A DNA stretch of 37,892 nt. Origin: Aquamicrobium aerolatum DSM 21857 (lineage in GTDB: Bacteria; Pseudomonadota; Alphaproteobacteria; Rhizobiales; Rhizobiaceae). The notes below the pieces were generated by a model. It searched no databases. It worked only from the letters and a program-made list of their open reading frames with translations, and was not told where the DNA came from. The translations under genes were made by a program, and so were the position numbers. Of this stretch, positions 2,338-28,781 are shown one piece after another (position 1 is the first letter of the stretch; every line of letters starts with the position of its first letter). Location: the NCBI RefSeq assembly GCF_900113935.1, contig NZ_FORF01000024.1, forward strand, positions 1 through 37,892, read 5' to 3'.

Positions 2338-2481
2338 GGCGAGACCCCTTACCAAACTCGATATTAATGGAGCCACATGCGAGCGTCAGTTGCAAGGCTA
2401 GCTGGATTGTGCCGGGATAGTCCTTGGCTCCCCTACTGGGGTGCCCTACGCGAGACCATCAACACCCGTTGGAGGTCTCAC

Positions 2482-6975: not shown

Positions 6976-7019
6976 AACGCGCGTAATTGCAGACGCTTCC
7001 CAAAAACATTGCATATCGA

Positions 7020-7041
7020 CGCAACTTTCATGAAGTTTGCG
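7020..7041 (+). promoter_or_regulatory. Imperfect inverted repeat upstream of the osmolyte transporter operon
   Basis: CGCAACTT and AAGTTTGCG flank TCATG, giving an eight-pair dyad with one bulged T. It lies about 40 bases upstream of the substrate-binding protein ATG. It could be a repressor site or an RNA hairpin. No known consensus was recognised and the assignment is tentative. Confidence 0.3.
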
Positions 7042-7080
7042 ACGTTAACCCTGAACTTTGACTGACAAAGTGAGGGGGCC

Positions 7081-10986: not shown

Positions 10987-11031
10987 ATTGCATCAGTTGC
11001 AATTGACCTTCCATGCCATCCTTCATAAAAA
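10987..11031 (+). promoter_or_regulatory. Candidate sigma-70 promoter with adjacent dyad upstream of wzm
   Basis: TTGACC at 11003-11008 and TAAAAA at 11026-11031 are 17 bases apart and lie about 65 bases before the chosen wzm ATG. A perfect six-base inverted repeat (ATTGCA, TCAGT, TGCAAT) at 10987-11003 touches the -35 element and could be an operator. The evidence is consensus matching by eye only. Confidence 0.38.
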
Positions 11032-11096
11032 GGCCACACCTATGCTGGTTTTGGGCGGCATACGCGTGCTCCCGAATTGCGACATCAAGGACAGAT

Positions 11097-11963
11097 ATGG
11101 AAAGCCAGACGCCTCGAGTTCTGCGTCAATCGAACGCGGAAGACGGTTGGGCAACGTTGTCGCCAAAGTCGATGCTGACGACCGTCTACAAGCACAGGCA
11201 GCTCATACTCCGCATGACCCAGCGTGAGCTGGAGGGCCGGTTCAAGGGCTCCCGGCTCGGGATCCTCTGGGTGATCCTGCAGCCCTTGCTGATGCTTGGC
11301 GTCTACACATTTGCGTTTGGTGTGGTTCTTCAGGCCAGATGGGGCCAGGAGGCCAGCGGCTCACCATGGGAATATGCGCTGTTCTTGTTCACGGGCTTGC
11401 TTGTCTTCAACGTTTTTGCGGAGCTTGTCAGTCGAGCGCCGTCGCTGATGCTGGAAAACACCAGCTATATCAAGAACATGGTTTTCCCGACTGAAATTCT
11501 GCCTGTCGTCAGTCTGTTGGCTGCCCTGTTCAATTTTGCGATCGGCTTTGCGGTCCTGATGGTCCTCTATCTCGTACAGCGCGGCCTTCCTCCGATCACT
11601 ACACTGCTTGTAGCGCTGCCTCTCCTGCCATTGTGCCTGCTCACGCTGGGGCTGTCATGGTTCCTGTCAGCCCTTGGTGTCTATGTCCGTGATCTGCGGC
11701 AGTTGATTGCGATTGTGATCCCGGCATTGATGTTTTTGAGCCCATTGTTCTACCCCGTGTCGATATTGCCCGAAGCAGTCCGGCCGATCATCATGTTGAA
11801 TCCGCTGGCTCCGATCATCGAGTCGATGCGTGAACTGATATTTTACGGACGGCTTCCGAACTGGGGTAGCTACCTCTTGGGCGTGGCGGCGAGCGCCGCG
11901 GTCGCGTGGCTTGGATATATCTGGTTCGTAAAGACCCGTCGGGGGTTTGCCGATGTCGTCTGA
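11097..11963 (+). CDS. wzm: Polysaccharide ABC exporter permease (Wzm/KpsM family)
   Basis: 288 residues from the ATG at 11097, chosen because AAGGA lies six bases upstream. The frame is open from 11013, but the extra 28 residues look non-coding. The protein has the ABC-2 exporter pattern: a cytoplasmic amphipathic start with RELEGRFKGSRLGILWVILQ near residue 46, then six hydrophobic helices ending KTRRGFADVV. Wzm forms the membrane channel that moves undecaprenyl-linked O-antigen or similar glycan to the periplasm. The wzt start overlaps its 3' end. Confidence 0.87.
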   Translation: MESQTPRVLRQSNAEDGWATLSPKSMLTTVYKHRQLILRMTQRELEGRFKGSRLGILWVILQPLLMLGVYTFAFGVVLQARWGQEASGSPWEYALFLFTGLLVFNVFAELVSRAPSLMLENTSYIKNMVFPTEILPVVSLLAALFNFAIGFAVLMVLYLVQRGLPPITTLLVALPLLPLCLLTLGLSWFLSALGVYVRDLRQLIAIVIPALMFLSPLFYPVSILPEAVRPIIMLNPLAPIIESMRELIFYGRLPNWGSYLLGVAASAAVAWLGYIWFVKTRRGFADVV

Positions 11964-13293
11964 AGTTGTGATCAAGGCCGATGGCCTCGGCAAGGCGTAT
12001 ACGATATTCAAGCGTCCCGAAGATCGGCTGAAGCAGATGCTGAGCTTTGGACGAAAGAAATACTACGATCATTACTGGGCTTTGCAGGACGTCAACTTGG
12101 AAGTCCGCAAGGGGCAGACTGTCGCGCTGATCGGCCACAACGGCGCCGGCAAATCAACGTTCCTGAAGCTTTTGTGCGGAACCGTGCCGCCAACGACTGG
12201 TTCGATCAGCGTTGCGGGCCGCATTGGTGCGCTCTTGGAGCTTGGTGCAGGTTTCAATCCCGAGTTTACCGGGCGTGAGAATTTGCGCCTTGCTGCTTCC
12301 GTACAGGGCTTTTCTGAAGCGGAAATCAAAGCCAAGGAGCCGGAAATCATCGCCTTTGCCGAGATTGGCGACTTTCTCGACCAACCGGTCAGGCTCTATT
12401 CCAGCGGCATGTATGCGCGCCTTGCCTTTGCGGTGATGGCGCATGTCGATCCGGATATTCTGATCGTCGACGAGATACTCTCCGTAGGCGATGCTGCTTT
12501 CCAGCAAAAATGCATGCGTTTCGTGCGTCGTTTTCGCGAGCGCGGAACTTTGCTGTTCGTCTCCCATGATTCTGCTGCGGTGTTGAATCTGTGCGAGCAC
12601 GCGGTATGGCTCGACGCTGGAACCGTGCGGATGGCTGGGGCCGCAAAGGACGTCTGCCTTGCCTACCAGGCCTCGATTGAGGAAGGCAAAAGCAACGCCA
12701 GTGCATTTCATATCGGGGGAAGCCGACGCCGTCTCGAAGCCGTCGAGCCGGTGGCAGACAAGACCGAGGAACTCTTGCGCGAGAGTGGTTCTGCGCCCAA
12801 GGTCAAGATATTCTCGTTTGACGCGGAAGCTCCCTCCTATGGACACGGCGGCGCCACCATCCGCCACGTGTCGTTTCTCGACAGCAATGGCGCGCCACTG
12901 ACGCTACTGACAGCGGGCGACGAAGTTACATTGCAGGTTGAAATCGTGGCAAACAGAGATCTGGAAAGCCCGATCATCGGTTTCTACGTCAAGGATCGCC
13001 TGGGTCAGAACCTTTTTGGCAACAATACGTTCGCGACCTACGCTGATCGCAACCCAGGAGCCCGCCAAGGCGACGCCATGACGGCGTCATTCCGCTTTCG
13101 TCTTCCGTTCATGCCGAATGGGGATTACTCGGTGACCGCTGCAGTCGCGGACGGAACTCAGGACGACCATCTTCATCATCATTGGATCGATGATGCACTG
13201 ATTTTCAAAGTCATAAATGAAATAGAGATTCAAGGCCTGCTTGGTGTGCCGATGAATTCTATTGATCTCCTTCTGGATGAAGGAGGAGGCTAA
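11953..13293 (+). CDS. wzt: Polysaccharide ABC exporter ATPase with C-terminal carbohydrate-binding domain (Wzt)
   Basis: 446 residues from the ATG at 11953 (MSSEVVIKADGLG), overlapping wzm by eleven bases. Residues 1-250 are an ABC domain: Walker A LIGHNGAGKST, the Wzt/KpsT-type LELGAGFNPEFTGRENL segment, signature YSSGMYARLAFAVMA, Walker B ILIVDEILSVGD and switch His in LFVSHD. Residues about 270-446 form an extra C-terminal domain around VSFLDSNGAPLTLLTAGDEV and IIGFYVKDRLGQNLFGNNTF, matching the Wzt_C beta-sandwich. In E. coli O8/O9a this domain recognises the modified non-reducing end of the glycan and couples chain termination to export. Ligand specificity here is unknown. Confidence 0.88.
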   Translation: MSSEVVIKADGLGKAYTIFKRPEDRLKQMLSFGRKKYYDHYWALQDVNLEVRKGQTVALIGHNGAGKSTFLKLLCGTVPPTTGSISVAGRIGALLELGAGFNPEFTGRENLRLAASVQGFSEAEIKAKEPEIIAFAEIGDFLDQPVRLYSSGMYARLAFAVMAHVDPDILIVDEILSVGDAAFQQKCMRFVRRFRERGTLLFVSHDSAAVLNLCEHAVWLDAGTVRMAGAAKDVCLAYQASIEEGKSNASAFHIGGSRRRLEAVEPVADKTEELLRESGSAPKVKIFSFDAEAPSYGHGGATIRHVSFLDSNGAPLTLLTAGDEVTLQVEIVANRDLESPIIGFYVKDRLGQNLFGNNTFATYADRNPGARQGDAMTASFRFRLPFMPNGDYSVTAAVADGTQDDHLHHHWIDDALIFKVINEIEIQGLLGVPMNSIDLLLDEGGG

Positions 13294-13387: not shown

Positions 13388-14434
13388 TTGCGTACGGTAG
13401 GATCCTCATTTCAGTCGCAGCGGAACAATTTTGACATTATTCGTATGATCGCAGCGAGTCTGGTTTTGATTAGCCACTCGTTTCCGCTGTCAGGCCATAG
13501 TTATGAGCCGTTCGCCCATTTGGGAGGCTATGAGACCGGTGGCGGGTTTGGAGTCAATGCGTTCATCGTTATCAGCGGCTTCCTGATTTGCCGTTCGGTA
13601 GAACGAGGCGATATCGAAGCCTTCTACCGAGCTCGGTTTCTGCGTATTGTTCCAGCGCTTGCTGTCGTCACTCTTCTGCAAGTCTTTATCATCGGGCCGA
13701 TATTTACTGATGCGAGTTTGACGCAGTATTTCTCGCTTAACCTGCGTCAGTTCCTCAACGTGTTTGTGTTTACTGTGGTCCCATCGGCTCCGACCGTCTT
13801 CACGGACCTGCCGCATGGCCAAATGATCAATGGCTCCCTTTGGACGCTGCCGATCGAGGCTTCTTTCTATGTCGTCATCTCGTTTCTTTTCTTGGGCAAG
13901 GTTTTGCGACCGGAAAGATTTTGGGTAGTCTTGGTACTTCTGGCGGCTGGATATTATCAGTTGAGCGTCAGCGGTTGCTCGTGGTCGGATCAGTGCGGGA
14001 TGATTGCCCGCAATCTTCCGCTCTATTCCACGACCAGATTGGCGGTGTTTTTTAGCATCGGTGCTGCTTTTTGGATTTATAGGGATCACATCCCACTCAG
14101 CCCATGGATCGCATTCTTCGCCTTGGTGGCTCTTGCACTTGCAGCTAGTAATCCGGGTATAGTGAAGGATGCGTTCTTTTTTGTCTGCTTCAGCTATCTG
14201 GTGATTTTCGTCGGATGCTACGCGAAGGTAGAGGTCAATTGGTACGAAAAGTTAGGTGATCTGTCATATGGGACTTACGTATTCGCATGGCCTGTGCAGC
14301 AGATTGTGCTGTCATTGTTCGGCCTGGAAATGAATCCATATGTGTTTGCTATCATTGCATTCGTTCCGACCGTGATGCTTGCTTGCGCTTCTTGGAATCT
14401 GGTGGAGAAAAGAGCACTTCTCCTCAAAAGATAG
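13388..14434 (+). CDS. Acyltransferase-3 family membrane protein (OafA-like)
   Basis: 348 residues, many hydrophobic helices. The family hallmark appears at the start, RNNFDIIRMIAASLVLISHS, with the conserved His of helix 1. It is followed by GGGFGVNAFIVISGFLICRS and the R-x10-H-like region AFYRARFLRIVPALAV. These proteins O-acetylate (or otherwise acylate) sugars of surface polysaccharides, using acyl-CoA from the cytoplasm. The start is a TTG at 13388 preceded by AGGTGA at short spacing; no upstream ATG is in frame and the next ATG cuts the conserved motif. It sits between wzt and the GT fusion, so it probably decorates the exported glycan. Confidence 0.82.
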   Translation: MRTVGSSFQSQRNNFDIIRMIAASLVLISHSFPLSGHSYEPFAHLGGYETGGGFGVNAFIVISGFLICRSVERGDIEAFYRARFLRIVPALAVVTLLQVFIIGPIFTDASLTQYFSLNLRQFLNVFVFTVVPSAPTVFTDLPHGQMINGSLWTLPIEASFYVVISFLFLGKVLRPERFWVVLVLLAAGYYQLSVSGCSWSDQCGMIARNLPLYSTTRLAVFFSIGAAFWIYRDHIPLSPWIAFFALVALALAASNPGIVKDAFFFVCFSYLVIFVGCYAKVEVNWYEKLGDLSYGTYVFAWPVQQIVLSLFGLEMNPYVFAIIAFVPTVMLACASWNLVEKRALLLKR

Positions 14435-14509: not shown

Positions 14510-17500
14510 ATGGCAAAGTTTAAATCTTCGGCGCTGATCGAAAAGCTTGATCTCGGTGAGGAGCTTGATTGGGAGCCTGCACGGCTTGTCGCTCCGGGTC
14601 CCTGGGCAGGGCATATCCCATTTGCTCATTGGCTCATCAAAGCAGCCGCTCCCAAAATCTTGGTGGAGCTTGGCACTCATACTGGCAATTCATTCAGTGC
14701 ATTCTGCAACTCGATCAAGAAGCACGCGCTCGACACTCGCGCCTATGCGGTCGACACTTGGCAAGGTGACGAGCATGCCGGATATTATGGCAACGAGATC
14801 TACGACGAGTTAAGGCAGTATGTAGGTGATGAATTTGGGTCTTCCGCAACTCTTGTGCGGTCGACCTTTGATGATGCCCTGTCTGATTTTGCACCGGGGA
14901 CGATCGATCTTCTTCATATTGACGGCATGCATAGTTACGAGGCTGTCAAACATGATTTCGATACCTGGGTAGATAAACTATCAGAACGAGGAATTGTACT
15001 TTTTCACGACACCAACGTCCATGAAAGAGGCTTCGGTGTTTGGAAGCTGTGGGACGAAATCAGCGCAGACTTCCCCTCATTCGAATTCAAGCATTCCAAT
15101 GGTCTGGGCGTGTTGGGGGTTGGCAACTCGCTTCCAGGCACAATCAAGGCGCTGTTCGACGCAAATGGGCAGAAAGACGAACGCACGCGTGTACGAACGG
15201 CGTTTGCTGTGCGTGGACGCAGGTTTGAACTGATCACAGAGCTGGAAGCGGTGCAGGGTGCGCTTGGTGAGGCCCATGAAGCCATTGAAGATGCGCGCGG
15301 TCATATCGGAGAATTGAACGCCGCCAAGAATGAGCTGGAAGCTGCCGTCACCTCGCTTCAGGAGGCTTTGGGCAGCGCCAAGCGAAACAATTCAGAGCTC
15401 TCGAAGACAATTCACGAGCTTTATGGTTCGACCTCATGGCGCGTGACACGACCATTGCGCCTTGCCAGCAAGGCTTACAGCCGATACCTGCGTCGCTACA
15501 TTCAGGCGATTGCTCGACGCACCCGCGGTGGCACGACAACTGCGACACGCGAAGAGTCTGCGCTCCACAATGTAGGTCTTCGCGACGCTGTACGCTCCAT
15601 GATGTCCAGCCGACTTGACGCATTCCTGAACGCGGGCGCCCGCCTGCGTCTGCCCAGCTCGGCTGCTCCGGACGTTACCATCATACTGGTTCTCTACAAC
15701 CAGGCGGAAATGACTTATGCGTGCCTTTCCGCGATCAAGGAGTGTCTTGCAGACAGCTCTGTCAAGATCGAGACGATCCTGTTTGACAATGGCTCTACCG
15801 ACCAGACGCACGCTCTGCTGGAGCGGCTTGATGGCGCGACCATCATCCGCAACCCGGAAAATCTGCACTTTCTGCGCGGCGTCAATGCGGCGAGCCGGAC
15901 TGCGAACGGACGCCATATACTGCTGCTGAACAATGACGCTCAGCTAACTCCCGGCTCCTTGGAAAACGCTGTTCGGATGCTTGACGAAGATCCGTCAATC
16001 GGCGCGGTCGGGGCGCGGATCATTTTGCCGGATGGTCGCCTGCAGGAGGCTGGATCAATCATATGGGCGGACGGAACCTGTCTCGGCTATGGACGGGGGA
16101 GAAATCCGAACGATGACGAAGTGATGTTCCAGCGCGATGTCGATTATTGCTCTGGGGCTTTCCTGCTGACGCCCCGCAGCTTGTTCGAGCGACTAGGCCG
16201 GCTGGATGAGGTCTATGCACCGGCATATTACGAGGAAACGGACTATTGTGTGCGCGTGTGGAAAGAAAATCTGCGCGTGGTTTACAATCCGAAGGTGACG
16301 ATCCACCACTTCGAGTTCGCAAGCTCCGGTAAAGTCTCAGACGCCCTGCAGTTGCAACAGCGGAATCTGGAAACCTTTCGCAGCCGCCATGCGGACTGGC
16401 TCGCGCAGCAACATCAAACAAATCCCCAGAACGTCTTGCGCGCGCGCTTCCACCGGGCGCGCGCGCCACGCATCCTCTTTCTGGAGGATCGGGTGCCAAA
16501 GCCGTGGTTGGGTGCCGGCCTGCCACGTGCCCAGGACATTGTTGCCGAGCTTAGTCGTGCCGGGGCACAGGTGACGATATTCCCAATGCTGAGGGAACCA
16601 GAGAACTGGCACGATATCTGGAAAACCCAGCCGATTGATGTCGAAGTGATTTTGCCGCTTGTCCGGGACGAAGGGCTGGCCGCTTTTCTTCGGGAGCGCA
16701 GCAACTATTACGATGCAATCTTTGTCTCGCGTCCACACAATATGGCCGAACTTCAAGCGGTTCTCTCGAAAGAGCCGCTGCTGAAAGGCAGGGCCCGCCT
16801 CATCTATGACGCGGAGGCTCTATTCGCCAATCGAGAAATACTCAAAAAGCAGCTAGAGGGTACGCCGCTTTCCGGGCAGGCGCAGGAGAAACTCATTCAG
16901 GATGAGTTGGCATTGACGAAAGGCAGTGATCTTATTCTCTCTGTCACAGAGTCTGAACGAAAGATCATGCAACGAAGCGGCCTGAGCAATGTCGCTGTAT
17001 TGGGGCATCAGGTTCATCAGGACCTGACGTCGGCACCGTTCGAGAAGCGTAAGGACATCGTGTTCCTTGGCGCGATACATGGCGATGATTCTCCGAACGC
17101 CGATTCCATCCGTTGGTTCGCGGCAGAAGTATTGCCGAAATTGCGCGAATTGCTGAAGATGCCCGACTTGCGTCTGCAGGTCGTTGGCGTCGTGAACAGC
17201 GCGCCGTCACTGGCGGAACTCGATGGAAAGATGATCGATCTCCTGGGGCGGATAGATAATCTGAAGTTGTTTTTCGAGGATGCACGCCTCGTGGTGGTGC
17301 CAACTCGTTTTGCAGCCGGGATTCCACACAAGGCACATCACGTTGCATCCCTTGGTGTTCCCATGGTGGTTACCGACCTGATTGCCGAGCAGCTAGGATG
17401 GGAGTCTGGCCGCGCTATTCTCGCGAGCTCAGATCCAATCCAATTTGCCCATCATTGTCGGGCGCTCTACACGGATCGCGACTTGTGGGAAACGCTGCGC

Positions 17501-18571
17501 TCTAACGCGGTGGCGCGAATCGAAGATGAGTGCTCTCCAGGGGCGTTCCGAGCGACCATTCAGCGCGTCATGGATCTTGCTGGTCAGGCCGCCGAAGTGC
17601 TCCCGGTGTCTGAAGGCGAAAGAGGGCGGACAATTTCCCAAGGCACCGCATCGCATTCACAGAACGCAGAAATTGCGGGACCATCCGTGGCCTTACCTTT
17701 TGGATACCGTCCGCTACGGCGCGAAAATGGGCACGGCGTGGCAGCTGTCTTCCATATTTTTTATGTCGAAGTTGCGGAAGAAATCCTGCGCTATGCCAAC
17801 AATCTTCTACCGGGAACCGATATTTTTATATCGACAAACACCCAGGAGAAAGCAGATCACATCGCCACAGTCTTTGCAGGCTATCATGGCGGTGCCGTTG
17901 CTGTTCGCGTAGTGCCGAACAGGGGCAGAGATATTGCTCCGAAGTTGATCGGCTTTCGCGAGGTCTATGACAATTATGATCTTGTGCTGCATCTCCATTC
18001 CAAAAAATCGGTGCACAACAGCGATCTAGCTCCGTGGCGCGGATATTTGTATGAGACGCTACTCGGCTCTGTAGAGCAGGTGCAGGATATTCTGGAAATA
18101 TTCGACCGTTCGTCAGGCATCGGAATGATCTTCCCGCAACATTTCGAGTATATTCGCCAATGGGTGTCGTGGGACAATAATTTCGAACAATGTCAGGCTC
18201 TCTCGGCGCGGCTTGGGTATCAGTTGCGTGAAGGTCATCCGCTAGATTTTCCTTCGGGATCAATGTTCTGGGCCCGGACGGCCGCCTTGCGCCCTCTGCT
18301 GGATTTGGAAATGTCGTTCGATGAGTTCCCTGTCGAAGGCGGTCAGGAGGATAGCACTCTGGCGCATGCCGTGGAGCGTCTGTATGCCATTGTCTGTGAG
18401 GTGTCGGGGCATGATTGGATCAAGATCGCCAGGCGAGATCTCTTGAAAAGCCCCGTCGGCGTTACCAAGATCGATCGACCCGAGGATCTCGACGATTTTC
18501 TTGCACATAAATTGGTGAGGTTGACGTCCACCCCACGTATGGCTCCACACGCATCTGTAAGCGAAAGCTAG
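14510..18571 (+). CDS. Multi-domain polysaccharide enzyme: methyltransferase, coiled coil, GT2, second GT, RgpF-like domain
   Basis: 1353 residues; ATG with GGAG eight bases upstream. Domains in order: (1) class I SAM-dependent methyltransferase, about 40-215, motif I LVELGTHTGNS and LLHIDGMHSYEAVKHDF (Methyltransf_24-like); (2) coiled coil, about 232-305, ending HELYGSTSWRVTRPLR, a linker common in rhamnan/O-antigen GTs; (3) GT2, about 388-625, with VTIILVLYNQ, DNGSTD, the DxD-like LLLNNDAQL and EETDYCVRVW; (4) a GT1/GT4-type domain, about 654-1020, with PNADSIRWFAAEVLPKL and RFAAGIPHKAHHVASLGVPM; (5) an RgpF-like domain (rhamnan synthesis F), about 1077-1300, with NRGRDIAPKL and DLVLHLHSKKS. 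It probably adds several sugars and methylates or caps the glycan at the inner membrane. Sugar specificity is inferred only. Confidence 0.85.
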   Translation: MAKFKSSALIEKLDLGEELDWEPARLVAPGPWAGHIPFAHWLIKAAAPKILVELGTHTGNSFSAFCNSIKKHALDTRAYAVDTWQGDEHAGYYGNEIYDELRQYVGDEFGSSATLVRSTFDDALSDFAPGTIDLLHIDGMHSYEAVKHDFDTWVDKLSERGIVLFHDTNVHERGFGVWKLWDEISADFPSFEFKHSNGLGVLGVGNSLPGTIKALFDANGQKDERTRVRTAFAVRGRRFELITELEAVQGALGEAHEAIEDARGHIGELNAAKNELEAAVTSLQEALGSAKRNNSELSKTIHELYGSTSWRVTRPLRLASKAYSRYLRRYIQAIARRTRGGTTTATREESALHNVGLRDAVRSMMSSRLDAFLNAGARLRLPSSAAPDVTIILVLYNQAEMTYACLSAIKECLADSSVKIETILFDNGSTDQTHALLERLDGATIIRNPENLHFLRGVNAASRTANGRHILLLNNDAQLTPGSLENAVRMLDEDPSIGAVGARIILPDGRLQEAGSIIWADGTCLGYGRGRNPNDDEVMFQRDVDYCSGAFLLTPRSLFERLGRLDEVYAPAYYEETDYCVRVWKENLRVVYNPKVTIHHFEFASSGKVSDALQLQQRNLETFRSRHADWLAQQHQTNPQNVLRARFHRARAPRILFLEDRVPKPWLGAGLPRAQDIVAELSRAGAQVTIFPMLREPENWHDIWKTQPIDVEVILPLVRDEGLAAFLRERSNYYDAIFVSRPHNMAELQAVLSKEPLLKGRARLIYDAEALFANREILKKQLEGTPLSGQAQEKLIQDELALTKGSDLILSVTESERKIMQRSGLSNVAVLGHQVHQDLTSAPFEKRKDIVFLGAIHGDDSPNADSIRWFAAEVLPKLRELLKMPDLRLQVVGVVNSAPSLAELDGKMIDLLGRIDNLKLFFEDARLVVVPTRFAAGIPHKAHHVASLGVPMVVTDLIAEQLGWESGRAILASSDPIQFAHHCRALYTDRDLWETLRSNAVARIEDECSPGAFRATIQRVMDLAGQAAEVLPVSEGERGRTISQGTASHSQNAEIAGPSVALPFGYRPLRRENGHGVAAVFHIFYVEVAEEILRYANNLLPGTDIFISTNTQEKADHIATVFAGYHGGAVAVRVVPNRGRDIAPKLIGFREVYDNYDLVLHLHSKKSVHNSDLAPWRGYLYETLLGSVEQVQDILEIFDRSSGIGMIFPQHFEYIRQWVSWDNNFEQCQALSARLGYQLREGHPLDFPSGSMFWARTAALRPLLDLEMSFDEFPVEGGQEDSTLAHAVERLYAIVCEVSGHDWIKIARRDLLKSPVGVTKIDRPEDLDDFLAHKLVRLTSTPRMAPHASVSES

Positions 18572-18627: not shown

Positions 18628-20061
18628 GTGAGCAGGGTTCAGCACGTGCAGAACAATAGCCTGAAATTCGGTACGAGTGGACTTCGCGGGCTTTCCCTTG
18701 AACTCAAGGGGGGCGAAGCGCGCCGCTACGCCCTGGCATTCTTGCGCTACCTTGGCGAGCAAGGCAGCAGCGTTTCGGAACTCTATCTGGCGCGGGATTT
18801 TCGGGACAGCAGTTCGGAAATCCTTCGAGACTGTGCGGCCGCAGCTGCAATTGTCGGGATTCGCGCTGTTGATTGCGGTGCCGTTCCGACACCCGCACTG
18901 GCGCTCCATGCGATGGCGGCCGGTGCTCCCAGCATCATGGTCACGGGAAGTCATATCCCTGAAGACCGCAATGGATTGAAATTCTATCTGTCCTCGGGTG
19001 AGATTTCCAAAGCTGATGAGGACGGCATTCTCCGCCAGCTTCGGCCCGTGGAAGCCGGCGACTATGCTGCGCCGGTGCGTGTGGAGGAGGCAGAAGCGCG
19101 TGAGCGCTATGTTGCAAGATATGCAAGGTTGCTCGCACCGGAGCTGCTCAAGGGGCTTCGTGTTGGCATCTTTGAGCACTCGACGGTGGCGCGGGATATT
19201 CTGGGGGACATCTTCCGTCATTGCGGAGCCGAAATAGTTCCCCATGGTCGCGCCGAGCGTTTCGTCGCGGTGGATACGGAGGCGTTCTCCGACGTCGTTT
19301 TCCAGCCATTGGCCGGATGGTTGGAAGCTTACCGGCTTGACGCCATCGTGTCGGCGGACGGTGACGGTGATCGTCCTTTGTTGATGGACAGCCAGGGTCG
19401 CTTCGTCAGGGGCGACGTTCTGGGCCTGCTGACCGCAGCGTTTTTAGGTGCGGATACCGTCGTGACCCCGGTCACGTCCAATACTGCAATCGAAGCGACA
19501 GAATATTTTGGCCAGACGATGCGTACGCGTGTCGGCTCGCCCTTTGTGATCGAGGGAATGCAGGCTGCGGTTGCGACCGGCAGTCGCCGGACGGTGGGAT
19601 TCGAGGCCAATGGCGGCACGCTTCTCGGCAATTCGATTGTGATGAACGGCATGACGATCGAGGCGCTGATGACGCGCGATGCCGTTCTGCCTTTGCTTGC
19701 AAGTTTCGGCGCGGCGGCATCCCGTGGAATGTCCTTGTCGGAGCTGGTGGCTTCGCTGCCGTTGCGCACTGCGTTGAGCGGGCGTCTTGCAGACGTGCCT
19801 GCACAGGCGAGCACCAGGCTTTTGACCAGCTTGCGTGATGATAGCTATGCCGCGACATTTTTCGCAGAGCAGGGCAACATCATCCGAAGGGCTGATATTG
19901 ATGGGCTCCAGTTCTGGCTCGATAACGATATTCTCTATCATTTTCGTCCGTCCGGAAACGCACCTGAACTCCGTTGTTATGTTGAAGCGCGTACAGGCCG
20001 TGAAGCAGAGGCAGCGCTGGCGTGGGGGCTGGCTGCCGCAGCAAAGGAAGTCGCGGTCTGA
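18628..20061 (+). CDS. manB: Phosphomannomutase (ManB / NoeK-like)
   Basis: About 477 residues of the alpha-D-phosphohexomutase family, interconverting mannose-6-phosphate and mannose-1-phosphate. It starts with LKFGTSGLRGLSLEL. The phosphoserine loop is MVTGSHIPEDRNGLKFY near residue 109 and the Mg site is VSADGDGDRPLL near 239. The sugar loop is FEANGGTLLGNS and the phosphate-binding end is FRPSGNAPELR. The start is uncertain: GTG at 18628 or GTG at 18646 (AGGG upstream of the latter). It precedes manC, so the pair makes GDP-mannose. The sequence differs from PgM/GlmM-type loops enough to favour a mannomutase. Confidence 0.83.
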   Translation: MSRVQHVQNNSLKFGTSGLRGLSLELKGGEARRYALAFLRYLGEQGSSVSELYLARDFRDSSSEILRDCAAAAAIVGIRAVDCGAVPTPALALHAMAAGAPSIMVTGSHIPEDRNGLKFYLSSGEISKADEDGILRQLRPVEAGDYAAPVRVEEAEARERYVARYARLLAPELLKGLRVGIFEHSTVARDILGDIFRHCGAEIVPHGRAERFVAVDTEAFSDVVFQPLAGWLEAYRLDAIVSADGDGDRPLLMDSQGRFVRGDVLGLLTAAFLGADTVVTPVTSNTAIEATEYFGQTMRTRVGSPFVIEGMQAAVATGSRRTVGFEANGGTLLGNSIVMNGMTIEALMTRDAVLPLLASFGAAASRGMSLSELVASLPLRTALSGRLADVPAQASTRLLTSLRDDSYAATFFAEQGNIIRRADIDGLQFWLDNDILYHFRPSGNAPELRCYVEARTGREAEAALAWGLAAAAKEVAV

Positions 20062-20163: not shown

Positions 20164-21588
20164 ATGACCAAGCTCGTTGTTCCGGTAGTGCTGGCAGGTG
20201 GACACGGTACCCGTCTTTGGCCGATGTCGCGGTCGGCGCGCCCCAAGCAGTTTCTTGAGCTGGTCGGTGAAGGTTCGCTGTTTCAGCAGACCTTGCTGCG
20301 TGCAAGCGATAATGAGCGCTACAGCGCGCCCATAATCCTGACCAATGCAGATTATCGGTTTATCGTTGCAGAGCAGGCGCAGGAACTCGGCATTGCTCCG
20401 CAGGCGATCATGCTTGAGCCTTCGGCGCGCAACACCGCACTCGCCATTGCTGTCGCCGCGGTGGCGGCGGTCGACAATGATGAAGATGCTATCCTGCATG
20501 TGCTGGCTTCAGATCACGCCATTGATGCAGGCGCGGACTATTACAAGGCAGTAGATGTCGCTGCGCAGGCTGCTGCAAATGGGCGTCTGGTGGCTTTCGG
20601 CATCGAGCCGACACGTCCGGAAACGGGCTATGGCTATATCGCTGTAGGGGAAGATCTGGGACATGGCGTCAATGTCATTGACCGGTTCGTGGAAAAGCCT
20701 GACCTTGCCAGAGCGCAGGAATTGCTCACCAATGGTGGCCATGTCTGGAATTCTGGCATGTTCATGATGGCCGCGAGGACGTATCTTTCAGAGTGCGAAC
20801 GTCTTGCGCCAGAGACCTACGCGGCCGCACGGTCGGCCATGGCGCAGGCGCGCAGGGATCTCGACTTTGTGCGTCTGGACGGCGCTGCATTTGAAACCGC
20901 GCCGAATATTTCTGTCGACTATGCGATATTTGAAAAGACCAACCGGGCTGCAGTCCTGCCTGTCAGTTTCGCCTGGTCGGACCTTGGCTCCTGGGATGCA
21001 GTCTGGAAAGCGCACAAGCCGGATCAGGACGGCAACGTTGCGGTCGGACCCGCACTGATGTCGAACAGCCGTGACTCCATGGTGGTCAGTGACGGCGCGC
21101 ATGTCGTTGTCGATGGCTTGCAGGACATTGCTGTCATCGCCAGTACGGATGCGATCTATGTTGGGCGTCTCAGCAGCGCGCAAGGCGTCGGACAGATCGT
21201 CAAGGCGCTCAAGTCGGATGATACGACGCGCGGCTTGACGGAAATTCACAAGACTGCCTATCGGCCCTGGGGTGGCTATTCCTCGGTGTTGTCGGGAGAG
21301 CGTTTTCAGGTGAAGCGGCTGTTCGTCAAGCCGGGCAAGAAGCTGTCTCTTCAAAAACATCATCACCGATCGGAGCATTGGGTCGTCGTGAAGGGGACCG
21401 GTGAGGTCACTATCGACGACAAGGTCATCTTGTTGTCCGAAAATGAATCGGTCTATTTGCCCCTTGGCTGCACCCACAGGCTCGCCAACCCCGGAAAAAT
21501 CCTGCTGGAGTTGATTGAAGTCCAGACCGGGTCTTATCTGGGGGAAGATGATATCATCCGAATAGAAGATGAGTTTGGGCGCAGTTGA
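20164..21588 (+). CDS. manC: Mannose-1-phosphate guanylyltransferase / mannose-6-phosphate isomerase (bifunctional)
   Basis: 474 residues. The N-terminal nucleotidyltransferase domain (about 1-290) opens with VPVVLAGGHGTRLWPMSRSA and carries RPKQFLEL and FVEKPDLARAQE. The C-terminal cupin (about 355-470) contains YRPWGGYSSVLSGERFQVKR and the metal-binding LQKHHHRSEHWVVVKGTGEV. This is the type II PMI/GMP architecture (ManC/XanB/AlgA). It makes GDP-mannose from mannose-1-phosphate and GTP and can isomerise fructose-6-phosphate. It is placed after manB and before rmlC. Confidence 0.92.
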   Translation: MTKLVVPVVLAGGHGTRLWPMSRSARPKQFLELVGEGSLFQQTLLRASDNERYSAPIILTNADYRFIVAEQAQELGIAPQAIMLEPSARNTALAIAVAAVAAVDNDEDAILHVLASDHAIDAGADYYKAVDVAAQAAANGRLVAFGIEPTRPETGYGYIAVGEDLGHGVNVIDRFVEKPDLARAQELLTNGGHVWNSGMFMMAARTYLSECERLAPETYAAARSAMAQARRDLDFVRLDGAAFETAPNISVDYAIFEKTNRAAVLPVSFAWSDLGSWDAVWKAHKPDQDGNVAVGPALMSNSRDSMVVSDGAHVVVDGLQDIAVIASTDAIYVGRLSSAQGVGQIVKALKSDDTTRGLTEIHKTAYRPWGGYSSVLSGERFQVKRLFVKPGKKLSLQKHHHRSEHWVVVKGTGEVTIDDKVILLSENESVYLPLGCTHRLANPGKILLELIEVQTGSYLGEDDIIRIEDEFGRS

Positions 21589-21632: not shown

Positions 21633-22205
21633 ATGAGCGGAAAAGTTTATCTGCTGCATCCCAAACGCTATGGCGACAGTCGTGGCTGGTTTACAGAGGT
21701 CTACAGCGAGAAAAAATTTGCAGAGCTGGGGATCACCTACCGCTTTGTGCAGGATAACCACTCGCTTTCCGTTCCTGTGGGCACACTGCGCGGCTTGCAT
21801 TTTCAGACGCCGCCTTTCGCTCAGGCAAAGCTCGTCCGTTGTGTGCGCGGCAGCATTTATGATGTCGCCGTAGATCTTCGTAAGGGATCGCCTACATACG
21901 GGTCTTGGGTGGGAGCTGAACTGTCTGCAGAAAACGGTGACCAATTGCTGATCCCGGTGGGGTTCGCTCATGGATTTGTGACGTTGGAGGCTGATACCGA
22001 GGTCACCTATAAAGTCTCAGACGTTTACGCTCCGGAAAATGACGCGGGTATCGCATGGGACGATCCACAGATCGGTGTGGACTGGCATCTGCCGGCCGGA
22101 GTTGCGCCCACGCTGAGTGAAAAGGACACCAGACATCCGGCCTTGGCGCAGTTCGACAGTCCGTTTGTGTTCGATGGCACGCCGATGACGCTTGTGGAAG
22201 TCTGA
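21633..22205 (+). CDS. rmlC: dTDP-4-dehydrorhamnose 3,5-epimerase
   Basis: 190 residues, the normal length for RmlC. The cupin fold shows GDSRGWFTEVYSEKKF near the start, QDNHSLSVPVGTLRGLHFQT with the active-site His, RCVRGSIYDVAVDLRKGSPT, and LIPVGFAHGFVTLE. It epimerises C3 and C5 of dTDP-4-keto-6-deoxyglucose. The ATG follows GAAAGAGACAGTCTCCC, where a GAGAC/GTCTC dyad covers the ribosome-binding region. rmlD begins one base after its stop. Confidence 0.93.
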   Translation: MSGKVYLLHPKRYGDSRGWFTEVYSEKKFAELGITYRFVQDNHSLSVPVGTLRGLHFQTPPFAQAKLVRCVRGSIYDVAVDLRKGSPTYGSWVGAELSAENGDQLLIPVGFAHGFVTLEADTEVTYKVSDVYAPENDAGIAWDDPQIGVDWHLPAGVAPTLSEKDTRHPALAQFDSPFVFDGTPMTLVEV

Positions 22206-22206
22206 G

Positions 22207-23115
22207 ATGGCAGGAAGGCTCCGAATTCTTGTCACCGGCGGCACCGGTCAGGTCGGCACCGAGCTTGCGCGTCAGGCTTGGCCTGACCATGTCGAGTTGA
22301 TCCTGCCAAACCGTCAAGAACTCGATCTCGCATCGAGCGAGGCTGTGCGCGCTTATGTCATGGCAGGGCGCTTTGACGCTGTGATCAACCCTGGTGCGTA
22401 TACTGCGGTCGACAAGGCGGAAGCAGACTGCACGACGGCATTCGCGGTCAACGCCATGGCCGCAGCGGCTTTGGCGGATGCAACGCGTGAGTTGAATATC
22501 CCGCTTGTGCATGTGTCCACCGACTATGTCTTCAATGGCTCCAAATCCGAGGGCTACCAGGAAGACGATCCGATCAATCCGATCAACGTCTACGGAGCTT
22601 CCAAGGCTGCCGGCGAACATGCGGTTCGGCTGGGTAACCCCCGTCATGTCATTTTGCGCACGGCATGGGTGTTTTCACCGCATGGGAGTAATTTCGTCAC
22701 GACGATGTTGAGACTGGCCGACAGGCCAGAACTCCGGGTCGTTAGCGATCAGAAGGGCTGTCCGACCGCAGCGTCAGATATTGCCGAAGCGCTCCGCATT
22801 ATTGCCATGCGTCTGATCGAGGATCGCGATGCGCCTGTCGGCACCTTCCATTTTGTCAACGCAGGTGACACGACCTGGTTCGGTCTTGCCAGTGAGATCT
22901 TTCGCCAGGAAAGAGAAGCTGGCTCTTCCGTTCCGGAAGTGATTGCGATCTCGACGACGGACTATCCAACTCCGGCCCGACGCCCGGCAAATTCCGTGCT
23001 ATCAGTTGCCCGCCTGGTTGACCAATACGGTATTTCGCCTCGTCCGTGGCAACTTGCGTTGAAGGATACGCTGGCAGCGTTGCGCAACGAAAGATCGAAA
23101 GGTGCCCCATCATGA
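22207..23115 (+). CDS. rmlD: dTDP-4-dehydrorhamnose reductase
   Basis: 302 residues from the ATG at 22207 ([17 protein letters not shown]), preferred over the GTG at 22192 because GGAAG lies at good spacing. It is an SDR-fold enzyme with the glycine-rich NAD(P)-binding loop at the N-terminus, [13 protein letters not shown], and the YxxxK catalytic pair in [14 protein letters not shown]. It carries out the last step to dTDP-L-rhamnose. It overlaps rmlA by ATGA. Confidence 0.93.
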
Positions 23116-23996
23116 AAGGCATTATTCTGGCGGGAGGGTCGGGCACGCGATTGCATCCGGCAACGCTGGCCGTCAACAAGCAGCTGATCCCGATCTACGA
23201 CAAGCCGATGATCTACTATCCGCTGTCGGTGCTCATGCTGGCCAAGATCCGCGAGATCCTGATCATTTCTTCGCCCGAATATCTCGACAGCTACCGCCGG
23301 CTGTTCGGAGACGGCAGCAAGTGGGGCCTCGATATTTCCTATGTCGTGCAGCCCAGTCCGGACGGTCTCGCGCAGGCTTTCACGCTCGGCGCCGAATTTA
23401 TTGGCAAGGATCCCGTTGCCCTCGTCCTTGGCGACAACATCTTCTTTGGCGCAGGCATCAGGGGGCTTCTGGATGCAGCCCGCAATCGTGAGGCCGGGGC
23501 GTCGGTATTTGCCTACGAAGTTGACGATCCGGAACGCTACGGGGTCGTTGAACTTGATTCCGAGGGGCGGGCTGTCAGCCTCGAAGAGAAGCCTGAGCGG
23601 CCGAAATCCCGCTATGCCGTCACAGGGCTATATTTCTACGACAACAAGGTGGTCGAGTATGCGCGTAGTCTGAAGCCATCGGCACGGGGCGAATACGAGA
23701 TCACCGATCTGAACCGCATCTACATGGAGGCAGGTGCGCTTTACGTGGAGCGGATGTCGCGCGGCTATGCCTGGCTGGACACCGGAACACATGACAGCTT
23801 GCTTGAGGCCAGTGAGTTCGTTCGAACGATTCAACATCGCCAGGGAACGCACATCGCCTGCATTGAAGAAATAGCCTATCTCAATGGGTGGATTTCAAAA
23901 GATAAGATTGTTGAGTACGGGCATTATTATTCCAAGACAGCCTATGGAAAATATCTGCTGAAACTTGCCGAGATGCCAGTGCCGGGCGGCCATTGA
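23112..23996 (+). CDS. rmlA: Glucose-1-phosphate thymidylyltransferase
   Basis: 294 residues from the ATG at 23112 ([20 protein letters not shown]), which overlaps the rmlD stop; the frame upstream to 23046 is not used. Signature residues include [31 protein letters not shown] and [20 protein letters not shown]. It makes dTDP-glucose from glucose-1-phosphate and dTTP, the first committed step of dTDP-rhamnose synthesis, and is usually feedback inhibited by the end product. Length and sequence match RmlA closely. Confidence 0.94.
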
Positions 23997-24039
23997 TCTG
24001 GCTACTGGCGTCAGTACTCTCTGAATGAATGGAGTTGGT

Positions 24040-25101
24040 ATGCGAATTCTTGTGACAGGCGGGGCTGGCTTTATCGGGTCCGCGCTGGTTCGTCATCTTG
24101 TGGGCGATGTCGGCGCTGAAGTCCTGACGGTTGATAAGTTGACCTACGCAGGAAACCTCGCTTCGCTCAAGTCGATCGAAAACGCCCCCAACCACCGTTT
24201 CCTGCGGGCTGATATCTGCGATGTTGCCGCAATGCATGCTGCATTCGACGAATTCAGGCCTGACCGGGTCATGCACCTGGCCGCTGAAAGTCATGTCGAT
24301 CGCTCCATCACCGGTGCTGGCGAATTTGTGCAGACCAATGTGATAGGCACTTTCAACATGCTGGAGGCTGCGCGTCGATATTGGGACCAGCAGACCGGCT
24401 CAGCCAAAGAGGACTTCCGCTTCCTGCATGTGTCGACTGACGAGGTCTACGGATCGCTCGGTGAAGACGGGTTGTTTACTGAGACAACGGCCTATGATCC
24501 GTCGTCGCCCTATTCCGCCTCCAAAGCGGCGAGTGACCACCTTGCGACGGCCTGGCACCGGACTTATGGCCTGCCGGTGGTTCTTTCCAACTGCTCAAAC
24601 AATTATGGGCCTTACCACTTCCCCGAGAAGCTGATCCCGCTGATCATTCTGAATGCACTCGAAGGCAAGCAGTTGCCGATTTATGGCAATGGCGTCAATG
24701 TTCGTGACTGGCTGTATGTCGATGACCATGCAAAGGCTCTGCATCTCATTGCCAGTCGGGGCCGTCTTGGCGAAAAATACAATGTCGGCGGACGCAATGA
24801 GCGCCGCAATATCGATGTGGTGAAGCGCATTTGCGAGATCATGGACAGGTTGCGTCCAAATTCAGCGCCGCATGCGCAACTGATCCACCATGTCACCGAT
24901 CGTCCGGGTCACGATGCGCGATACGCCATCGATGCGACGAAGCTTGAGCGAGAGCTTGGCTGGCGCGCGCAGGAGAATTTCGACACGGGTATCGAAAAAA
25001 CGGTTCGCTGGTATCTGGAAAATCAGTGGTGGTGGGAGCCGTTGCGTGGCGGCGTCTATGCCGGGGAGCGTCTCGGTGTTCTGGAGCAGCCAAAAGGATA
25101 A
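24040..25101 (+). CDS. rmlB: dTDP-glucose 4,6-dehydratase
   Basis: 353 residues from the ATG at 24040, six bases after GGAG; an ATG at 24025 would add five residues. It is an extended SDR with [15 protein letters not shown] for NAD binding, [10 protein letters not shown], the catalytic [10 protein letters not shown] and the [10 protein letters not shown] Tyr/Lys pair, then [15 protein letters not shown]. It oxidises, dehydrates and reduces dTDP-glucose to the 4-keto-6-deoxy sugar. It is the last plus-strand gene of the locus, converging on a GT gene 21 bases away with no obvious terminator between. Confidence 0.94.
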
Positions 25102-25122: not shown

Positions 25123-25944
25123 TCAGAAGAGCTTCAGCCCGTGCTGGCGGTAAAACAGGGCTGCCGACTTGCCAAATTGCCGGATGTGCCACCAGCCCTT
25201 GCGGGCTGCGTGGCCGCCTGCATGGGTGATCTCTACGGAAGGAACATAGGCGGTGCGTGCCGCCGCTCCTGAACGAAGCGAGAGATCGAAATCCTCGAAA
25301 TACAGAAAATAGCGCGGATCGAAGCCTCCAAGCTTCTGGAGCAGCGCACCCCTGAACATCATGAAACAACCGCTGACGATGGGCGGTGACCAATAGGCTT
25401 CTTCATTTGTCTCGGCGCGCATCTCATAGCGAGCAAGGCGGCGTTCAAACAGCGCCCTCATGAAGGGCGGAGCAAAGCCCCGCAAGAGGAGGTCGAACAG
25501 AGCTGGATAGCGTTTGCAAAGGAACTGGCGTGTGCCGTCAGGCCAGTGTGCCTTGGGTGTGAGTAGCCCTGTATCCGGGTTCTTGCGCATGAAACTGATC
25601 GCTGTTTTGAGCGCATCAGGTTGCATCTGGATGTCTGGATTGAGAATGAGGTGAAACTCTCCAATCCGCTCAAACGCCAGATTGTGAGCGCGCCCAAAGC
25701 CGATATTTCCATGCCCTTCGAGGACGCGCACCGGCCAATGGGACAGTTCCTCGCGGGCAATTTTGCCGGCATCACTTTGAGGACTGTTGTCCACCAGTGT
25801 GATCAGAACGTTCGGCTCATCGAGTTGGGCTAAGGCTTCTTGCAGGCTTGCCAGTGTTGCCCGCAATTCGCTGGCGTCGCTGAGAAAGGTGACGATCGAG
25901 ATCGTCAGCAGTTCAGGCGCAGTGCTGCTGTGGGGAGCCGTCAC
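25123..25944 (-). CDS. GT2 glycosyltransferase, WbbL-like rhamnosyltransferase
   Basis: 273 residues of GT-A fold. It has ISIVTFLSDASELRATLASL at the N-terminus, TLVDNSPQSDAG, GHGNIGFGRAHNLAFERI and the DxD-like LILNPDIQMQPDAL. These are characteristic of WbbL-type dTDP-Rha rhamnosyltransferases. The C-terminal EDFDLSLR holds the likely catalytic base, and no membrane helix is visible. It overlaps the upstream GT by ATGA. The rml genes next door would supply its donor. Acceptor unknown; the rhamnosyl assignment rests on family resemblance and context. Confidence 0.8.
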   Translation of the reverse strand: MTAPHSSTAPELLTISIVTFLSDASELRATLASLQEALAQLDEPNVLITLVDNSPQSDAGKIAREELSHWPVRVLEGHGNIGFGRAHNLAFERIGEFHLILNPDIQMQPDALKTAISFMRKNPDTGLLTPKAHWPDGTRQFLCKRYPALFDLLLRGFAPPFMRALFERRLARYEMRAETNEEAYWSPPIVSGCFMMFRGALLQKLGGFDPRYFLYFEDFDLSLRSGAAARTAYVPSVEITHAGGHAARKGWWHIRQFGKSAALFYRQHGLKLF

Positions 25945-26852
25945 TTTCTGCCCATCCTGTTACGCAGCCCATGCCAAATTCCCAAGGACATCATTTTCGC
26001 GTGCCGAAGTCGTTGCGGGACGAACACGGAAAAAAATAGCGACTGCCGAACCACGCGCCACAGCAGCACAAACCGCCACTGTGCCGATATCCATGGGCGT
26101 CGTGCCAGCCAGATTGCATTGCGCGCATGGTAATAATGTCGCAAGGGACTGTGAACGGGAACGCGACGGTCGCGAAATTGTACCCACTCGTCTCCCAGTG
26201 CATGCATCATCCGGGCCGGGTAGACCCCATAGGACCGGTAGCCCAATTGACGGGCGCGCAGACCCCACTCGATGTCGACATAGTCGATGAATAGCTCGGC
26301 AGCCATCGGGCCGATGGCGTCCAGTGCCTTCATCGGGATCAGACAGCCGGAGGCAATGAGGAAATCGGCTTCCGTGATATCCTCTCCGGGCGCCTTCAGC
26401 CGCCGTTTTAGTTGAAGCCCGTCCAGATAGACAAATGGTGCGGTCTCGCCCTGGCGTTCGTCGAGATAGCTCGGCCCTACGGCTGCGACCATGTGGCCGG
26501 ATCGTGAAAGGCCTTGCTCGGCTGTCAGAAGCCTTTCGACCATGTCAGCGGCAGGGACACTGTCCTGATCCATAAGCAGGACAAATTCAGCGCTGTGTCT
26601 GCGGGCATGCTCGATTCCGACGTTCTGTGCGTGAGCAATGCCGAAATTTTCGCCAAGCTCGATCAGCTCGGTGGTCGTTGCCTCGCGCAAGGTTGAAAAG
26701 TCGAAGTCCGAGCCATTGTCGACGATGACGAGGCGCGTTAGTTGCGGAAGCACGGCATGCACAAGAGCCTCCAGCATCTCTGCCGTAGGCTGATAGGTGA
26801 CTATGACGCCGCAGACGTTGGCCGCTTCACGCGATCCTGCCAGTGTGTTCAT
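25941..26852 (-). CDS. GT2 glycosyltransferase, RfbN/rhamnosyltransferase-like
   Basis: 303 residues. The N-terminal GVIVTYQPTAEMLEALVHAV, VIVDNGSDFDFSTLRE and ENFGIAHAQNVGIEHARR, and the metal motif FVLLMDQDSVPAADMVERL, fit bacterial rhamnosyltransferases of GT2. FIDYVDIEWGLRARQLGYRS provides the later acidic motif. The C-terminal part (YHARNAIWLARR) is basic and amphipathic, suited to peripheral membrane association. It starts three bases after the stop of the 581-residue protein with only a weak Shine-Dalgarno, implying translational coupling, and overlaps the next GT by four bases. Confidence 0.82.
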   Translation of the reverse strand: MNTLAGSREAANVCGVIVTYQPTAEMLEALVHAVLPQLTRLVIVDNGSDFDFSTLREATTTELIELGENFGIAHAQNVGIEHARRHSAEFVLLMDQDSVPAADMVERLLTAEQGLSRSGHMVAAVGPSYLDERQGETAPFVYLDGLQLKRRLKAPGEDITEADFLIASGCLIPMKALDAIGPMAAELFIDYVDIEWGLRARQLGYRSYGVYPARMMHALGDEWVQFRDRRVPVHSPLRHYYHARNAIWLARRPWISAQWRFVLLWRVVRQSLFFSVFVPQRLRHAKMMSLGIWHGLRNRMGRK

Positions 26853-28601: not shown

Positions 28602-28781
28602 ACTGTCTCTCGGATATGCGCATTCGGCGGCGCAGCGCTCAGATTGATGCCGACGCCGCAATCAGATGGGGAAGTGTTGCACGATGTCTTTTAGGGCGGA
28701 TGTTTTCAGGATGGAAGAGGTAAGTTGCTTGAGTGGGATAAGGAATTCCCGTAATTTTACCAATTAAACAAATTTTCTATA

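Follow-up and report, generated by a model that had tools for sequence, protein, structure and literature searches.

Single proteins that carry a chain terminator, a coiled coil and glycosyltransferases (GTs) have been described in Klebsiella pneumoniae. In the part of PMC11231755 available to us, O7 ORF6 is one protein with a methyltransferase, a kinase, a predicted carbohydrate-binding module (CBM), a coil and two GT2 modules, and O12 WbbB is a single chain made up of a terminator, a coil and two GTs that polymerise. Here we analyzed a window of 37,892 nucleotides, the whole of one contig of Aquamicrobium aerolatum DSM 21857, to which all coordinates refer (Table 1) and which encodes a 1353-residue protein, P0001. 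The initial annotation had read a methyltransferase, a coil, two glycosyltransferases and an RgpF-like domain in this one frame, and Pfam and AlphaFold bear this out; it had also held that such modules are separate or at most paired in known systems, which is contradicted by O7 ORF6 and O12 WbbB, where cap, ruler and polymerase are already fused (PMC11231755). We predict that P0001 is probably a membrane-bound terminator-ruler-polymerase in an ABC-transporter-dependent O-polysaccharide pathway.

The identity and order of the modules are established by four Pfam domains, all scoring above curated cut-offs: Methyltransf_24 (residues 52-168; 4.7e-25; 88.9 bits versus a cut-off of 26.3), Glycos_transf_2 (residues 390-559; 1e-18), Glyco_trans_1_4 (residues 848-989; 3.5e-14) and RgpF (residues 1074-1296; 3.5e-51; 174.9 bits versus a cut-off of 25), the last a partial match to profile positions 269-498 of 503 only. 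AlphaFold modeling of residues 1-390 as a single chain (alignment of 41 sequences; mean predicted local distance difference test, pLDDT, 87.6) gave a methyltransferase fold, a helix at residues 222-306 that is separated by a break at 307 from a second one at 308-339, and, with lower certainty, a further helix at 347-379. By Pfam order and the AlphaFold model, the terminator-type domain is N-terminal, at the distal end of the coil, and the GT modules follow the coil toward the C-terminus of the one polypeptide.

In the arrangement that we propose, the basic helix after the coil would hold the protein on the inner membrane. Near the membrane, the GT2, GT4 and RgpF modules, possibly together with two stand-alone GT2 enzymes, would extend a rhamnose (Rha)/mannose (Man) chain on a lipid carrier, as suggested by the domains and by the rml and man genes of the locus. 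By analogy with WbdD, WbbB and O7 ORF6, the methyltransferase, which sits distally on the 85-residue helix, would O-methylate the non-reducing terminal sugar once the chain reaches it, and growth would stop, the coil spacing capping from polymerisation. The Wzt C-terminal domain (CTD) may then bind the methylated end and license export through Wzm.

The architecture is conserved. The full protein was found in one other of 100 genomes (own included), from the same genus and with 80% identity over residues 1-1344, and no other full-length match was listed in 397 genomes of the order or 398 of the phylum, where two candidates were scored per genome. Among 83 matching records of a plasmid collection, a single one spans 80% or more of the query, a Roseomonas gilardii gene annotated 'rhamnan synthesis F family protein' (47.8% identity over 98%). 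A one-genome-per-species scan with the methyltransferase alignment confirmed at least 514 relatives, of which the best 80 were kept; the 144 sources scanned were picked by similarity, not as a random sample, and include near-duplicates (L115/L116, L132/L138). They contain 109 frames of at least 200 aa with the window-type methyltransferase. The exact order methyltransferase-GT2-GT4-RgpF, whose frequency the initial annotation had raised, is not unique: it occurs in 6 of these 109 frames, all confirmed by Pfam, from the window, its congener, R. gilardii, Humitalea rosea, a metagenome-assembled genome named Asaia bogorensis, and Roseomonas rosea. R. gilardii belongs to the Acetobacteraceae according to its record, and we take the last three to be Acetobacteraceae as well. 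The six proteins form two groups, with 79% identity inside the first, 65-76% inside the second and 46-48% between them. Other sets behind the same head are GT2-GT2 (27 frames), RgpF (12), GT2 (10), GT2-GT4 (6) and rarer ones (6), and 42 of the 109 have no further module by local profiles, an upper bound, since the profiles do not detect every module (only Pfam showed the GT4-type domain of L143). No paper on the five-module architecture was found in a literature search made without most subscription papers.

The SAM-binding fold that had been assigned to the N-terminus is present, as a class I fold, by both the Methyltransf_24 score and the AlphaFold model. The nearest solved fold is MeT1 (6g80, 6g7d; best E 4.9e-10, template-modeling (TM) score 0.68 on the target), also the top sequence-profile match in the PDB (8.8e-4); the accessible part of PMC9883506 describes MeT1 as a sugar O-methyltransferase that targets the 1-OH of methylmannose oligosaccharides. 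Pfam detected no kinase domain at E<=0.1 in the 1353-aa protein, and because, in addition, helix 222-306 starts directly after the methyltransferase domain (profile end 219), we infer a plain O-methyl cap as in Escherichia coli O8, not methyl-phosphate. The likeness to WbdD proposed in the initial annotation holds for the logic, with a methyltransferase at the far coil end and an adjoining Wzt with a CTD, and fails on the kinase and on PDB matches, with no WbdD-named chain among the 7 matches of the methyltransferase profile at E<=1 or among the 50 listed fold matches of its model. Membership in WbdD itself was rejected on the absence of a detected kinase, a methyltransferase without detectable sequence kinship and the GT modules in the same chain.

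For the coil, hydrophobic residues occupy the a and d positions of one register in residues 238-305 to a degree that 0/5000 shuffles equaled, and the heptad test gave 0/1000 shuffles each for the window, congener and R. gilardii proteins. Between the methyltransferase and the anchor motif, the window protein has a spacer of 90 residues and the congener protein one of 97, and the four distant orthologues have spacers of 170-212; if these spacers are rulers, a matching difference in chain length is expected. Between the coil and the GT2 module we additionally found a basic amphipathic helix that had not been annotated: residues 305-345 include 10 K/R and 0 D/E, and the eight highest listed 18-residue hydrophobic moments all begin at residues 311-325. 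A conserved SxSWRxTxPLR motif with a basic helix follows coils, or closes C-termini, in differently headed proteins. Counted as SW[RKQ][LIVMATY][TSA]xP[LIVMFYA][RK], the motif is found in 49/109 frames with the window-type methyltransferase and 15/210 GT frames without it (together 64/319 methyltransferase or GT frames), in 13/4225 other frames (many not genes) and in 0/2180 shuffled proteins.

The link between capping and export was assessed through the Wzt domain, which aligns, as a distant match, to that of Aquifex aeolicus Wzt (2.9e-11). In the accessible part of PMC9445017, the A. aeolicus domain binds 3-O-methyl-D-mannose and not mannose, the polymer is Rha/Man-rich and ends in 3-O-methyl-Rha or -Man, and the methyl pocket consists of Leu300, Thr346, Ala348 and Trp362. 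That numbering is one below the aligned chain, and after the shift the seven named residues checked agree. The window pocket reads Tyr, Thr, Ala, Trp, so that Thr346, Ala348 and Trp362 are kept and Leu300 is replaced (3/4). Surveys with the CTD only, of the class (289 genomes, 11 matching besides the own) and the phylum (398 genomes, 25 matching besides the own), together gave 35 distinct places, 16 close (<=6e-35) and 19 distant (>=2.4e-24), a line drawn after the E-values had been seen. A methyltransferase lies within 1.4 kb of 16/16 close CTDs, eight of window type and eight of other families (five of the latter fused to GT modules), with Pfam run for L072, L088, L196, L199, L206 and L208, and local profiles only for L073 and L205. 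Around distant CTDs, a methyltransferase within 1.5 kb was found in at least 6/19 and a window-type one in 0/19; the former is a lower bound because Pfam covered only part of the neighbors (one each of 10 loci, the flagged ones of 5, and the large GT protein of L070), while neighbors in L212, L203 and L204 were assigned by local profile only, the last two on contigs of about 5 kb. One-sided Fisher tests of close versus distant gave 1.8e-5 for any methyltransferase and 5.5e-4 for the window type, values that ignore kinship (four of the 16 close loci are from one genus and two from another) and that include distant loci with short contigs and little flank (L203, L204), short contigs being present in both groups. 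The pocket Trp is kept in 16/16 close domains, 39/40 further domains from loci with the window-type methyltransferase and 15/19 distant ones, Ala in 15/16, 36/40 and 8/19, and Thr in 5/16, 22/40 and 6/19; given how Trp and Thr are kept or vary across all groups, neither discriminates, and Ala does better. At the level of sequence, the window Wzt domain is a homologue of a proven methyl-cap reader and is genomically coupled to methyltransferases.

Several observations count against the role proposed for P0001. For the cap reader, besides the limits on the survey and tests given above and the commonness of the pocket Trp among distant domains, the window has Asp and Thr in place of the contacts His355 and Met353, and L070, the distant CTD nearest the line, has the pocket motif and no methyltransferase found. 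For the ruler, three of the four long orthologues show no significant heptad pattern (L095, L099 and L101, with 55, 259 and 485 of 1000 shuffles). For the polymerase, the canonical acidic motif of GT4 enzymes is EX7E, and in the six-orthologue alignment it is absent from the aligned place in the GT4 module.

The last point bears on the strongest alternative, in which the methyltransferase caps and the C-terminal modules fall short of a complete polymerase, one or more of them (GT4 or RgpF) adding adaptor or side-chain sugars while the stand-alone GT2s polymerise. The RgpF model matched GT-A-like proteins in Foldseek only weakly (best E 5.1e-5, TM about 0.2-0.4) and the module gave no useful match by sequence against the PDB; the fold is suggestive of a third, GT-A-like glycosyltransferase, which the initial annotation had not proposed. 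Besides the missing acidic motif, a divided polymerase would be consistent with the retention of both stand-alone GT2 genes in the congener and with the many C-terminal sets, or none found, in methyltransferase-coil proteins, from which it follows that no single set is needed for the head. Against it, polymerisation in WbbB and O7 ORF6 is carried out by modules C-terminal in the coil protein itself (PMC11231755). We regard this alternative as possible and rather doubtful.

Less likely, the methyltransferase could decorate internal residues of each repeat, with a coil that merely joins modules and exerts no length control. In favor of this, the stretch between domain end and motif ranges from 32 to 487 residues in 49 proteins, and O-methyl sugars are present inside many rhizobial and Azospirillum polysaccharides. 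The position of the methyltransferase at the far coil end and a Wzt domain of the methyl-cap type that is coupled to methyltransferases argue for terminal capping instead, and we consider internal decoration improbable.

It is slightly more improbable still that the fusion serves glycan assembly generally, outside the ABC-transporter O-antigen route, next to a Wzt that is a chance neighbor. Flanks of no less than 6 kb upstream and 5 kb downstream are available for 62 of the best 80 loci; a Wzt is present in 44/62, 31 with and 13 without the window-type CTD, and the congener Wzt lies 39 bp from the fusion, which speaks against this reading, while 18/62 have no Wzt within about 10 kb. The GT2-GT4 pair follows a window-type methyltransferase in 8/62, with a window-type CTD nearby in only one, a Wzt lacking it in three and no Wzt in four. 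The expectation in the initial annotation that this order always adjoins a Wzt with a CTD did not hold, as only 2/6 five-module proteins (window and congener) do so and the loci of the other four are without a Wzt. A CTD-only search of these four (three genomes and the R. gilardii plasmid record) found none at E<=0.01, with the congener domain recovered at 8.3e-99 as a positive control; Wzt matches listed in the three genomes span the ATPase part only, and the R. gilardii plasmid record, with the chromosome outside the search, had no Wzt match. From 2/6 and 1/8 it follows that the architecture does not in itself include a link to a cap reader, and this adds to the points against the proposed role. 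The loci of these four (L090, L095, L099, L101) each also encode a separate GT4 protein. Finally, a frameshift or assembly error joining separate genes, a check named in the initial annotation, is refuted and of negligible probability, because the same modules in the same order are present in the congener, the R. gilardii plasmid gene and three further loci, making six sequences 46-79% identical, and nothing was found in its favor.

Beyond the terminator-ruler-polymerase role of P0001, the distribution of the anchor motif extends to other heads. In 8/49 window-type methyltransferase frames the motif lies within 50 residues of the C-terminus, giving methyltransferase-coil-anchor proteins without GT modules. 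In GT frames without that methyltransferase it follows Methyltransf_11 (L072, L078, L088), PIG-L plus GT2 (L050, L084) or GT heads (L063, L070). Pfam on 10 of the 13 other motif frames gave two Methyltransf_23, two weak Methyltransf_24 (below cut-off), two Glyco_tranf_2_4, one sulfotransferase and three without a Pfam family. This pattern suggests a common chassis with exchangeable heads. More speculatively, the coil and SxSWRxTxPLR helix may form a standard membrane-anchored chassis for interchangeable chain-ending heads (methyltransferases of several families, sulfotransferase, glycosyltransferase, deacetylase) with optional polymerase modules, the head setting the cap chemistry and the Wzt CTD being the matched reader; if true, cap, ruler and export license would be predictable from sequence. 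Two loci deserve separate mention. L158 encodes a protein with a sulfotransferase head and the SWR motif at its end (6083-7117), together with a window-type methyltransferase and two GT2-type proteins ending in the SWR motif, and sulfate caps are worth a look there. L092, an IncX5 plasmid of Citrobacter braakii, has an rml-wzm-wzt cluster and a 1289-aa methyltransferase-RgpF-HAD protein with the SWR motif, and near-identical matches to it are listed on Citrobacter, Pantoea and Klebsiella plasmids.

The genes around P0001 run on the same strand in the order Wzm, Wzt, acyltransferase, P0001, phosphomannomutase (PMM), mannose-1-phosphate guanylyltransferase (GMP) and rmlCDAB, followed by two GT2 genes on the opposite strand (Table 1). 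The best PDB matches of the Wzt-like protein are 8dku and 7k2t, of an O-antigen ABC transporter (7K2T is named in the accessible part of PMC9445017). The congener (L032, L048) keeps the order Wzm, Wzt, fusion, PMM and GMP, has no acyltransferase between Wzt and fusion, and has rmlD, rmlA, rmlB and the two GT2 genes beyond Wzm, in inverted orientation. Candidate initiating transferases in the own genome are one PF00953 (a 361-aa frame, probably MraY) and four PF02397, on contigs C23, C41, C32, C28 and C17; none of these five hits is in the window. Elsewhere in the window are a transposase-like frame, by reading, cut off by the contig end (2-658, minus strand), a 425-aa protein with two PAN domains (1099-2376, minus strand), and a 601-aa protein without a Pfam family (26856-28661, minus strand) beside an ABC exporter (29110-30831, plus strand), which is followed by a gene resembling, by reading only, a type I secretion membrane fusion protein (30844-32145, plus strand).

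Table 1 Features of P0001 and its locus, in window coordinates.
Feature	Coordinates	Strand	Evidence
Five-module protein P0001, 1353 aa	14510..18571	+	Single uninterrupted ATG frame; Pfam; 80% homologue in congener
Class I O-methyltransferase module (PF13578), residues 21-219, proposed chain terminator	14570..15166	+	Pfam; AlphaFold; best fold match MeT1; alignments
Continuous 85-residue helix with heptad repeat, residues 222-306, proposed ruler	15173..15427	+	AlphaFold; heptad shuffle tests
STSWRVTRPLR motif and basic amphipathic helix, residues 307-339, proposed membrane anchor	15428..15526	+	Hydrophobic moment; charge; motif counts; helix break at 307
GT2 module, residues 380-634	15647..16411	+	Pfam; local profile; six-orthologue alignment
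GT4 module, residues 654-1020	16469..17569	+	Pfam; local profile
RgpF (PF05045) module, residues 1074-1303, C-terminal half of profile, GT-A-like model	17729..18418	+	Pfam; AlphaFold; Foldseek (weak)
Wzm-like ABC-2 permease	11013..11963	+	PF01061 6.5e-21
Wzt-like ATPase with putative C-terminal cap-binding domain	11947..13293	+	PF00005; PF14524 Wzt_C 7.2e-35
Wzt_C carbohydrate-binding domain, residues 297-432	12835..13242	+	PF14524; alignment to A. aeolicus 3-O-methyl-mannose-binding domain
Acyltransferase 3, possible O-acyl decoration	13388..14434	+	PF01757 1.4e-27
Phosphomannomutase/phosphoglucomutase	18628..20061	+	PGM_PMM domains
Mannose-1-phosphate guanylyltransferase / mannose-6-phosphate isomerase	20164..21588	+	NTP_transferase, MannoseP_isomer
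RmlC-like, dTDP-L-rhamnose supply	21633..22205	+	Hits coincide with annotated rfbC of R. gilardii
RmlD-like	22192..23115	+	Hits coincide with annotated rfbD
RmlA-like; real start probably ~20 codons inside	23046..23996	+	Hits coincide with annotated rfbA
RmlB-like	24025..25101	+	Hits coincide with annotated rfbB
Stand-alone GT2, possible adaptor or polymerase partner	25123..25944	-	PF00535; kept in congener (L048)
Stand-alone GT2, possible adaptor or polymerase partner	25941..26852	-	PF00535; kept in congener (L048)

With P0001 as a probable terminator-ruler-polymerase, the cap-ruler-polymerase idea gains a version tied to a Wzt domain type whose ligand is proven in Aquifex. For this and like loci it predicts one O-methyl on a terminal Rha or Man, and natural orthologues, with spacers of either about 90 or 170-212 residues, lend themselves to a comparison under the ruler model.

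The ruler role of O9a WbdD is reportedly the subject of Hagelueken 2015, and WbbB that of Williams 2017. Among the systems compared, A. aeolicus WzmWzt shares with the window a homologous Wzt CTD, and its Rha/Man-rich polymer and methyl cap (PMC9445017) resemble those predicted here, whereas the match is distant and two further contact residues differ. MeT1, the mycobacterial methylmannose polysaccharide 1-O-methyltransferase, is the closest solved structure to the head and likewise works on the end of a polysaccharide precursor; unlike the head, it is stand-alone and its 1-OH target is the reducing end. E. coli O101/O162, by description in the available part of PMC13168486, also has a wzm-wzt locus, with a methyltransferase gene needed for O-methylation indicating terminal capping. 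As far as PMC3482155 was available, WbdD of E. coli O9a/O8 shares the N-terminal methyltransferase and long coil and recruits its polymerase through its C-terminal region; O8 WbdD is a methyltransferase only, without a kinase, whereas O9a WbdD has methyltransferase, kinase and C-terminal domain only and no GT module. The WbdD polymerase is a separate protein, in contrast to the GT2, GT4 and GT-A-like RgpF modules that share one chain in the window. WbbB resembles the window protein in combining terminator, coil and polymerising GTs in a single chain, and differs in that its terminator is a 3-deoxy-D-manno-oct-2-ulosonic acid (Kdo) transferase (GT99) and its polymerising GTs are GT102 and GT103 (PMC11231755). 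O7 ORF6, compared by description in the same source, has an N-terminal methyltransferase terminator, a coiled coil, C-terminal GTs, a wzm-wzt and rml locus and a polymer that contains rhamnose; unlike the window protein, it carries a kinase and predicted CBM between methyltransferase and coil, a methyl-phosphate cap and two GT2 modules. By this comparison, the window protein appears to fit the O7 ORF6/WbbB plan and to differ in its head (Methyltransf_24, with no kinase seen) and its tail (GT2, GT4 and RgpF). The fusion of cap, ruler and polymerase is already published for those two proteins, and what is new is a plain methyltransferase head with three GT-like modules.

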